The translations under genes and the position numbers were made by a program. Source: Candidatus Woesearchaeota archaeon (lineage in GTDB: Archaea; Nanobdellota; Nanobdellia; Woesearchaeales; UBA12501). Taken from it: DNA of 64,000 nucleotides. Positions 3,285 through 56,482 of this stretch are shown piece by piece. A model generated the notes under the pieces. The model saw nothing but the letters and a program-made list of their open reading frames with translations, searched no databases and was not told the origin of the DNA. The DNA is taken from the NCBI GenBank assembly GCA_030651375.1, contig JAUSFM010000015.1:62001-126000 (forward strand), given 5' to 3'. How positions within the stretch are numbered: the first letter of the stretch is position 1; each line of letters begins with the position of its first letter.

Positions 3285-3499
3285 AAGCTCGCTAAATAGG
3301 GCGATTTTATAAGGATTATGGGAATTAAGAATATAATGGGAAAGGCGGCGGAAACGGCGCTTCGCGCCCCCAGACCTTTGTTCTCGGATCAAAATAAGGC
3401 GGCGGTGGGATGTAAACCTACACAATCTTTTTGCTTTCGCAAAAAGCTTGACCAAAAATAAGCTAAGGTGGGCTTCGCTTTGCTCAGCCCACCGAACAA
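3285..3499 (-). mobile_element. tRNA-Cys-associated hairpin insert with tail copies
   Basis: Reading away from the 3' end of tRNA-Cys there is a hairpin GGTGGGCTG...GCCCACC, then TTTTTGGTCAAGC running into a CTTTTTGC/GCAAAAAG hairpin (3427-3460), then a degenerate copy of the tRNA 3' end (3398-3424), then a GGCGCGAAGCGCC palindrome near 3358-3370 and a further short CCGCCGCCTT fragment near 3346-3356. No ORF. The GGTCAAGCTTTT hairpin followed by a tRNA-tail copy recurs behind tRNA-Thr and tRNA-Leu in this window, which suggests a shared small element. Calling it mobile is inference. The part next to 3284 also holds the promoter of the downstream gene. Confidence 0.5.
3398..3424 (-). repeat. 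degenerate copy of the tRNA-Cys 3' end
   Basis: On the minus strand this reads as a T-arm and acceptor 3' strand (TAGGTTTACATCCCACCGCCGCC) that matches the true tRNA-Cys 3' end apart from a few changes in the T stem and loop. The acceptor 3' strand and the first flanking TT are identical. It lacks the 5' two thirds of a tRNA and cannot fold as one, so it is a remnant or attachment-site copy. Confidence 0.75.
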
Positions 3500-3572
3500 G
3501 GCGGCGGTGGGATTTGAACCCACAAGTGATCGCTCTGCAGGCGATTGCCTTACCGGATTTGGCTACGCCGCC
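3500..3572 (-). tRNA. tRNA-Cys (GCA)
   Basis: A 73-base cloverleaf on the minus strand: acceptor GGCGGCG/CGCCGCC, D arm GCC...GGC, anticodon stem ATCGC/GCGAT with loop CTGCAGA giving anticodon GCA, T arm GTGGG-TTCAAAT-CCCAC. All stems pair perfectly. No intron and no encoded CCA. Its 3' side is followed by the hairpin insert and the degenerate tail copy annotated separately. Confidence 0.96.
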
Positions 3573-18690: not shown

Positions 18691-18762
18691 GCCTCTGTAG
18701 CTTAACGGTGGAGCGGCGCTTTCGTAAAGCGCAGGTTGGGAGTTCAAATCTCCCCAGAGGCT
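18691..18762 (+). tRNA. tRNA-Thr (CGT)
   Basis: Acceptor GCCTCTG/CAGAGGC, D arm GCTT...GAGC, anticodon stem GCGCT/AGCGC with loop TTCGTAA (anticodon CGT), T arm GGGAG-TTCAAAT-CTCCC, discriminator T. All helices pair. No intron. The 3' side is followed by the hairpin insert 18765-18858 and a degenerate copy of the tRNA tail. Confidence 0.95.
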
Positions 18763-18764
18763 TA

Positions 18765-18858
18765 TTGGTTTGGAGTCGAGGGCACGGTCTCACGTTGCGC
18801 GAAGCGCCTCGGCCTCGGAGAGGCCGTTTTGGCCAAGCTTTTGCGCTTGCGCAAAAGG
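18765..18858 (+). mobile_element. tRNA-Thr-associated hairpin insert
   Basis: A 94-base ORF-less insert between the tRNA end and a degenerate copy of that end. It contains GTTGCGCGAAGCGCC (18794-18808), a GGCCTC-GGA-GAGGCC hairpin, and TTTTGGCCAAGCTTTTGCG paired with CGCAAAAGG at its end. The same order of GCGCGAAGCGCC, hairpin, GG(T/C)CAAGCTTTT and tail copy is seen behind tRNA-Leu. Mobility is inferred. Confidence 0.5.
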
Positions 18859-18885
18859 TTGGTTCTAAATCTCCCCCGAGGCTTA
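18859..18885 (+). repeat. degenerate copy of the tRNA-Thr 3' end
   Basis: TTGGTTCTAAATCTCCCCCGAGGCTTA in essence repeats the tRNA-Thr T arm, acceptor 3' strand and flanking TA with a three-base gap, one inserted base and one substitution. It cannot fold as a tRNA. Confidence 0.72.
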
Positions 18886-23900: not shown

Positions 23901-23984
23901 GCGGACGTGCCGGAGCGGTCAAACGGGACGGGCTTAGGACCCGTTAGCTTAGTGCTTACGCAGGTTCGAATCCTGCCGTCCGCA
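23901..23984 (+). tRNA. tRNA-Leu (TAG)
   Basis: Class II tRNA: acceptor GCGGACG/CGTCCGC, anticodon stem ACGGG/CCCGT with loop CTTAGGA (anticodon TAG), a long variable arm TAGCTTAGTGCTTAC, and T arm GCAGG-TTCGAAT-CCTGC. No intron. The last 26 bases and the following TCA recur perfectly 224 bases downstream. Confidence 0.95.
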
Positions 23985-23987
23985 TCA

Positions 23988-24182
23988 ACATTTTTTTGCT
24001 TCGCAAAAAAATGTTGTGCACGACGAGTTTTCGCCTCCGGCGAAAACAGCGCTTCGCGCACGGAAAAAATATAGGATACTAACCAGTTGGTGTTCAGTCG
24101 TTGCGCGAAGCGCCGGGGCTCCGAACGAAGTGAGGTGTCTTTTTTTGGTCAAGCTTTTGCCGCCGAAGGCGGGAAAAGGTTG
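23988..24182 (+). mobile_element. tRNA-Leu-associated hairpin insert
   Basis: 195 bases without an ORF between two perfect 29-base copies of the tRNA-Leu end. Order: AACATTTTTTTGC/GCAAAAAAATGTT hairpin, GTTTTCGCC/GGCGAAAAC hairpin, GCGCTTCGCGC, a central unstructured part, GTTGCGCGAAGCGCC, then GGTCAAGCTTTTGCC with a CGCC-GAA-GGCG stem. The end structure matches those behind tRNA-Thr and tRNA-Cys. The perfect flanking repeat suggests this is the most recent of the three. Confidence 0.6.
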
Positions 24183-24211
24183 CGCAGGTTCGAATCCTGC
24201 CGTCCGCATCA
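24183..24211 (+). repeat. perfect 29-base copy of the tRNA-Leu 3' end
   Basis: Identical to 23959-23987: the end of the variable arm, T arm, acceptor 3' strand, discriminator and following TCA. It looks like an attachment-site duplication. Confidence 0.9.
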
Positions 24212-55592: not shown

Positions 55593-56258
55593 TCAGCCGC
55601 TCCTATTTAAACCTTTCACTATCAACTCTAACTTTCTCTTTTTTTCTTCATTTTCAAAACCAATCTCTTTTTGAAATAATCGTATGCTTTCTTTTCTTCG
55701 TATCTTCATTCTTACGCCGACCGTCACTTTTCCATCTTTGCGCTTATTTTTTCTTCCTTCTAAAAACGGTTTTGTTGTTTTTATACCAAAATAAGACTCG
55801 AGCAACTTTTTTATATCCTTAAAAAAATTAATTCCATCTTTAACGAGAGATACCTCTTTAGACATTTTTATTTCTATTGCTTTTGAAAAACAATCGACAC
55901 ACCCTTCACAGGTAAACAACCGTTCGGCAAAACGGCGAAAACATTCTTTATCGTTTCGAATCCATGCGGGTATAACAAAACGTTGTAACACTTTATTCCC
56001 TGCAGGAACACCTAGACTATACATGTACCGTGCAATCTCTCTGTTATTAATCCCTAAATTAAATGAAACCCCGTATAGGTTTGTTTTATTTTCCCTGATT
56101 TTGCCTTTGTAACCAAAGAGCACGTTTATTTCGTTATTAAATCGCTCAAGTTCCGTAGTATCTTTTGAGGTATAATCCATCCTCCATTTTGGATGGCCTT
56201 GAAGATGCCCATCTCCCATAAGATCTCCAACAATCCCTGCTAATATCCTCTTCTTCAT
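55593..56258 (-). CDS. LAGLIDADG-type homing endonuclease
   Basis: 221 residues from the ATG at 56258, about 28 bases behind a GTATTTAAACAGG box A; an upstream in-frame extension lacks support. First motif ILAGIVGDLMGDGH (about 5-18), with the helix and the catalytic-type Asp; second motif FAERLFTCEGCVD (about 101-113) is degenerate. The rest is Lys/Arg-rich and AT-rich, including MKIRRKESIRLFQKE. Freestanding and 121 bases from an apparently interrupted tRNA-Phe, which would suit an intron- or tRNA-gene-associated endonuclease. Confidence 0.82.
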   Translation of the reverse strand: MKKRILAGIVGDLMGDGHLQGHPKWRMDYTSKDTTELERFNNEINVLFGYKGKIRENKTNLYGVSFNLGINNREIARYMYSLGVPAGNKVLQRFVIPAWIRNDKECFRRFAERLFTCEGCVDCFSKAIEIKMSKEVSLVKDGINFFKDIKKLLESYFGIKTTKPFLEGRKNKRKDGKVTVGVRMKIRRKESIRLFQKEIGFENEEKKRKLELIVKGLNRSG

Positions 56259-56379
56259 AAGGGGGCATGTATTGTTCCTGTTTAAATACCTGACGCGGGT
56301 GTTTGTCCAGTGTCCAGTGGAAAAGACCAAAAACTATATAAATCGTCCATAAGCCCTCTGGTTCAAGCTGAGTTATTAT

Positions 56380-56482
56380 GGGAATGAGAAAACAATTGTT
56401 TTTTTGCCATTAACATAGCTCAGCCTGGGAGAGCACCACGCTGAAGACGTGGTTGTCGTGGGTTCAAATCCCACTGTTCCCA
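56380..56482 (+). tRNA. tRNA-Phe (GAA) with an apparent insertion in the 5' acceptor strand
   Basis: The core is clear: D arm GCTC...GAGC, anticodon stem CCACG/CGTGG with loop CTGAAGA (anticodon GAA), T arm GTGGG-TTCAAAT-CCCAC, acceptor 3' strand TGTTCCC. The matching 5' strand GGGAACA is not contiguous: GGG(AA) lies at 56380-56384 and (AA)CA at 56412-56415. The 29 intervening bases have complementary ends (AATG/CATT) and an inner AAAAC/GTTTT hairpin. Without this reading, only four of seven acceptor pairs form. A CTATATAAATC box A lies at 56334-56344. A canonical bulge-helix-bulge could not be drawn. Confidence 0.75.

Follow-up and report, generated by a model that had tools for sequence, protein, structure and literature searches.

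Miniature inverted-repeat transposable elements (MITEs) and repetitive extragenic palindromic (REP)-like repeats are short, non-coding and multi-copy and have hairpins at their ends, and the 3′ ends of tRNA genes are classic attachment (att) sites. We analysed a 64,000 nt stretch of DNA (the window) from Candidatus Woesearchaeota archaeon (assembly GCA_030651375.1, contig JAUSFM010000015.1, positions 62,001 to 126,000), in which an intact tRNA-Leu(TAG) gene is followed by a hairpin-rich insert and a second copy of its own 3′ end. Parts of this arrangement are known from other Archaea. The casposase of A. boonei generates duplications of 14–15 bp at the 3′ end of tRNA-Pro, upstream of which it requires a TCAAATC motif (PMC6614799); by analogy, it offers the closest precedent for duplicating 14–15 bp next to a T-loop motif where a tRNA gene ends. 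In Caldiarchaeum a tRNA-Thr gene is disrupted by a 1.8-kb mobile element (Sugahara 2012, PMC3293823). Large-scale transposition of tRNA introns occurred in Thermoproteales, according to the citation of Fujishima 2010 in PMC4090602, a paper that describes the mode of movement of archaeal tRNA introns as unknown. We consider it likely that the insert behind tRNA-Leu(TAG) is a copy of a non-autonomous, intron-related family of small hairpin-ended mobile DNA that inserts beside tRNA genes. No description of the same arrangement was found in the open-access literature.

On the + strand of the window there are just two copies of the 29-mer CGCAGGTTCGAATCCTGCCGTCCGCATCA, at 23959 and 24183; it comprises the last 26 nt of tRNA-Leu(TAG) plus TCA. 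The duplication of the tRNA tail around a hairpin insert, as reported in the preliminary description, is exact and lies far above chance. The insert between the repeats is 195 nt long and forms strong hairpins (folding energy of −84.3 kcal/mol for the 198 nt directly 3′ of the tRNA gene). It matches no Rfam family and hence no known stable RNA listed there; such a match, combined with absence of the insert elsewhere, would have counted against insertion in the preliminary description. That description had also seen no open reading frame in the insert: there is indeed no convincing gene, but short frames of 21–75 aa overlap it.

The source genome (G000) comprises 1.30 Mb in 23 contigs, of which we read the stretches around the tRNA genes and around matches to the locus. 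A search with the 311-bp locus resulted in 35 matches including the locus itself, and the insert alone gave 41, demonstrating that it is present elsewhere in the genome. Most tail copies (here called stumps) follow a conserved hairpin CAACCTTTTTTGC-loop-GCAAAAAAGCTTG, the head, which in the outward reading is CAA(C/T)(C/A)TTTTTTGC-loop-GCAAAAAAGCTTG and is present at nearly every stump junction. A regular expression for the head matched 41 times within the stretches read. Two of these matches were discounted: the one at 24016 (−) is merely the window copy's left hairpin read in reverse, and the one at C15:109676 seems to be accidental. With a covariance model the head was found at 29 distinct places genome-wide, 25 of which lie at most 500 nt from a tRNA gene, in DNA that makes up only 3.5% of the genome. 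The features of the locus and two further examples from the window are listed in Table 1.

Table 1. Coordinates of the tRNA-Leu(TAG) locus, of further examples in the window, and of probable intron-containing tRNA genes in the source genome.
Feature	Position	Strand	Basis
tRNA-Leu(TAG), intact	23901..23984	+	ARAGORN, Rfam
Direct repeat copy 1, 29 nt (T arm, acceptor 3′ strand, discriminator A, TCA)	23959..23987	+	
Left-end hairpin CAACATTTTTTTGC-TTC-GCAAAAAAATGTTG, forward element head	23986..24016	+	match to head covariance model R1
Second hairpin of element body, GTTTTCGCC-TCC-GGCGAAAAC	24027..24047	+	
Perfect 12-nt inverted pair GCGCTTCGCGCA (24049-24060) / TGCGCGAAGCGC (24102-24113), around insert middle	24049..24113	+	
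Right-end hairpin = antisense head, − strand reading CAACCTTTTCCCGCCTTCGGCGGCAAAAGCTTG, abuts repeat copy 2	24150..24182	−	
Direct repeat copy 2, 29 nt = stump of tRNA 3′ end	24183..24211	+	
Window example 2: tRNA-Cys 3499-3572, head 3423-3450, tail copy CCCACCGCCGCCT 3397-3409	3397..3572	−	
Window example 3: tRNA-Thr(CGT) 18691-18762, antisense head 18834-18861, tail copy CTCCCCCGAGGCT (12/13) 18871-18883	18691..18883	+	
Six probable tRNA genes with 59/60 intron	G000 C14:161485, C3:181200, C3:234465, C9:137476, C9:144800, C9:145028		TTCRAA ... YGAANN|TCC, matching T and acceptor stems

The elements of this family are non-coding, hairpin-ended and roughly 85–200 nt long. The window copy carries a head at each end in inverted arrangement, with the termini CAAC...GTTG bounded directly by the repeats; in this copy the inverted ends are clear, while many others have one head only. 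Copies were found in both orientations relative to the tRNA, many of them antisense or outside RNA genes, and nearly all copies read in the source genome are extragenic and flanked by duplicated gene ends. Three tRNA-Ser genes have mirror-image copies upstream, with the 5′ end duplicated; at tRNA-Ser-GGA two repeats of the first 20 nt of the tRNA precede the head. Other copies lie at the end of a ferredoxin-like gene, where an exact 14-nt duplication (GAGATTAAGTATTA) flanks the element, between two ATPase-like genes (gene names from reading the translations), and inside a group I intron (RF00028) of the 23S rRNA gene (C11:20393-20753; L160 694-1054 (−)). Like MITEs and REP-like repeats, the family is short, non-coding, multi-copy and hairpin-ended, and shows inverted termini (in the window copy) and target duplication. 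It differs in having no known parent transposase, in its strong preference for tRNA genes and in a head that it has in common with introns. We regard the family as a variant of mobile archaeal introns and MITE-like elements, a view that supersedes the att-site reading.

To score duplicated tails strictly, we demanded at least 12 of 13 identical nt within 600 nt downstream of a tRNA gene. By this measure 18 of the 42 tRNA genes of the source genome have their own 3′ tail copied downstream, while tails of foreign tRNAs scored in 1 of 1690 tests and shuffles in 0 of 20. Reading of the flanks gave a similar picture: about half of the tRNA genes have, downstream, a hairpin insert terminated by a copy of their own 3′ end; these comprise genes for Arg, Ala, Met, Gln, Ile, Cys, Thr, Leu, Val, Tyr, Ser and Lys. 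The exact shared segment starts at T-loop position 59 or 60 in most cases, and its end varies from 1 nt short of the tRNA end to 5 nt past it; its length is 11–21 nt, apart from tRNA-Tyr (28 nt) and tRNA-Leu (29 nt). The extra length of the Leu repeat is T arm, and some of the 29 nt may agree with the element end by chance, because a similar element-side GCAGGTTC precedes the stump in several other copies. In a tRNA-Ile array of three units the stumps have 0, 1 and 2 mismatches with increasing distance from the tRNA (the third counted by eye), which makes it plausible, but does not prove, that a perfect repeat is of recent origin, as had been proposed alongside gene conversion. The preliminary description interpreted the repeats as an att site pair. 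This would imply a site-specific recombinase acting on a fixed attP, and since the tail differs from locus to locus and matches the local tRNA, we replaced this interpretation by a duplication made at the target. An assembly artefact was rejected as the source of the repeats, as most copies are internal to contigs and have flanks of their own; only the tRNA-Ala(CGC) copy is located at contig ends. The end of contig C3 and the start of contig C11 carry near-identical copies of the tRNA-Ala(CGC) element, and these contigs may therefore be neighbours.

The insert is not present after the tRNA-Leu genes at 19 loci of relatives; together with its recurrence in the source genome this agrees with an inserted element flanked by a duplicated tRNA end. 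Other inserts in the same kind of arrangement were found, as independent cases, at the tRNA-Leu genes of the genomes G033 (duplication of about 14 nt) and G021. Likewise, own-tail copies accompany 5 of 36 tRNA genes in G121, 3 of 24 in G006, and 5 of the 6 in an 8-kb stretch of archaeon SpSt-1190. The inserts of G006 and G033 are unrelated in sequence. In G141 an element copy stands between two repeats of the 5′ end of a gene.

Across 371 genomes of the phylum, a pattern consisting of the head and GACCAAAA was matched 22 times, in 14 genomes, and its backward reading gave no match. Most of the 22 matches mark the 5′ border of probable tRNA introns, which are located at position 37/38 or, in the T loop, at 59/60; two of the T-loop introns are in Woesearchaeota records. 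One head copy interrupts a 16S rRNA gene in a relative. Twelve T-loop introns of relatives, most of them headed by the hairpin, end with YGAAAG before T60. The Y pairs with R57 of the exon in 12 of 12 cases (A-U in 8, G-C in 4), and the search had demanded Y and R each separately, not their match. Such covariation is what the central helix of a bulge-helix-bulge (BHB) would require, and the sequences thus suggest that the head-bearing tRNA introns of relatives are probably BHB introns. As the same head, in sense direction, forms the 5′ end of these introns, we consider the family an intron-related mobile element. The window copy itself does not interrupt an RNA gene between two exons, since it is located past the end of an intact tRNA; the R57-Y pair applies to the introns of relatives and not to this copy outside the gene.

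Our data are consistent with the following course of insertion. The element would be joined near T-loop position 59/60 at one side and just beyond the tRNA end at the other, and the segment between the joints (3′ strands of T stem and acceptor, about 12–16 nt and up to 29 nt at tRNA-Leu) would end up on both sides of the element, leaving the tRNA whole and a stump beyond. The occurrence of both orientations and of extragenic sites favours movement as DNA, by some enzyme that was perhaps supplied from elsewhere. From the sequences we infer this mobility at the DNA level, the order of events and the action of a moving enzyme. In mobile archaeal BHB introns, too, spread is supposed to occur at the DNA level and 59/60 is a known intron position, as far as Fujishima 2010 is cited in PMC4090602; in contrast to these introns, the head described here is also found outside genes, in both orientations and flanked by duplicated gene ends.

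A sense copy with its stump differs from a 59/60 intron solely by the first tail. Insertion beside a tRNA gene with duplication of the gene end may be the birth stage of a tRNA intron, and the family a new kind of mobile element; we put this forward tentatively, as an idea that is more doubtful than the mobility of the family itself. The element would first insert beside the tRNA and duplicate its tail, and subsequent loss of the first tail could then leave exon 1-59, the element and exon 60-73, a spliceable T-loop intron. The sense copy behind tRNA-Val(CAC) of SpSt-1190 (L125) would need a single deletion for this step, whereas most stump-bearing copies in G000 are antisense and unable to become introns of the T-loop kind. 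The family matters because the movement of archaeal tRNA introns is unexplained (PMC4090602): a head common to probable introns and to extragenic copies with target duplication offers a concrete substrate, a predicted intermediate and testable junctions for this movement, and head-bearing copies in relatives may show how tRNA introns arise. It could also be the reason why tRNA fragments recur in these archaea and why some of their tRNA genes escape annotation.

Several observations weigh against a mobile family of this kind. In the relatives read, valS and cysS do not flank tRNA-Leu, and the comparison proposed in the preliminary description yielded no orthologous empty site; no close strain was among the genomes compared, so gain or loss is not visible. 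The duplication length varies from 11–29 nt at tRNA genes to about 57 nt at a larB-like gene in G153 (L157), which is unusual for a single transposase. There, the 3′ end of the gene stands twice around an element copy with mostly synonymous differences, and because of these differences the case looks like replacement by another copy and not like a fresh duplication. No enzyme for the mobility was identified: the source genome has no Cas1 (PF01867) and no reverse transcriptase, its only tyrosine recombinase (PF00589) is XerA, and no autonomous parent element was seen at the copies read, in a search that left most transposase families outside. A stand-alone LAGLIDADG gene in the window (55593-56330 (−), PF14528, 31.4 bits, 245 aa) might be a candidate for a moving enzyme.

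Alternatively, each stump could be an attR: a tyrosine-recombinase element would have integrated into the tRNA gene, and later loss of its body would have left only the hairpins. The common use of tRNA 3′ ends as att sites would fit, and the doubled larB-like gene end in G153 would suit a foreign element that came with a gene end of its own. The tRNA fragment beside the mobile element in Caldiarchaeum (Sugahara 2012, PMC3293823) is comparable as well, since fragment, element and a complete, intron-gaining tRNA stand together; however, that case is a single locus with a protein-coding element, whereas here one non-coding family of elements occurs at many tRNAs of a single genome and in several families. 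The insert carries no integrase gene, XerA is the only tyrosine recombinase found, tails that vary by locus and match the local tRNA leave no fixed attP core, the same short hairpins recur at the junctions without a trace of larger bodies, and neither 5′ stumps nor copies in the group I intron or an rRNA gene fit a single att site, all of which renders the att remnant unlikely. Integration by a Cas1-family enzyme, as by casposons or in adaptation of clustered regularly interspaced short palindromic repeats, would use the T loop as leader and duplicate about 14 bp at tRNA 3′ ends. Element arrays do look like repeat-spacer arrays, and casposons of the tRNA-targeting family 2 are similar in the size and target of the duplication and in the adjoining T-loop motif (PMC6614799, PMC4046053). 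But the elements described here have no gene content, Cas1 was found in 1 of 13 relatives that bear the element or duplicate tails and is absent from the other 12, and the duplication lengths vary: the ferredoxin-like gene has exactly 14 nt, the tRNA-Leu gene of G033 about 14 nt, and tRNA genes overall 11–29 nt. Moreover, the casposon duplication begins 8 bp downstream of the motif and here at the motif edge. We rate this possibility as very improbable.

Spread at the RNA level is another option: excised introns would reverse-splice into tRNA or rRNA precursors and then be copied into DNA. That the same head begins tRNA introns and the 16S rRNA gene insertion in relatives speaks for this course, as does the intron transposition in Thermoproteales (Fujishima 2010, as cited in PMC4090602). 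We nevertheless consider it quite unlikely, since many copies are antisense to the tRNA or lie beyond RNA genes, reverse splicing is not expected to give target duplications and the source genome lacks a reverse transcriptase. Finally, hairpin and duplicated tail might be functional trailers, kept for tRNA 3′ processing, termination or folding and spread by gene conversion. The stumps are mostly identical to the tRNA, hairpins stand directly 3′ of many tRNA genes, and the T-loop variant GTTTACAT recurs ahead of several stumps. Yet more than half of the tRNA genes have no stump, the distal stumps of the tRNA-Ile array decay, the inserts of G006 and G033 have unrelated sequences, and copies also occur at protein genes and inside introns, so there is little to recommend this explanation.

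A viral source of the head was also considered and rejected: a first pattern matched 0 viral contigs, and the one match of a second pattern (L180) looks like chance. Outside the source genome, many weak matches of the head model stem from common TTTTTGC/GCAAAAA hairpins or from other repeats. Members of the same order (L133, L144, L156, L158 and others) carry a different repeat, a hairpin GAAGTTTTTTGC...GCAAAAAATTT beside GGCTTAAGG / CCCTTTAAGCCC, which was not seen at tRNA genes. Six tRNA genes of the source genome contain short probable T-loop introns at 59/60 without a head and were mostly missed by ARAGORN and Rfam (Table 1). In the tRNA-Phe gene of the window (56380-56481 (+)) the acceptor 5′ strand seems to be interrupted, with GGGAA followed by about 28 nt and then CATAGCTCAG, suggesting a possible intron near position 5/6.
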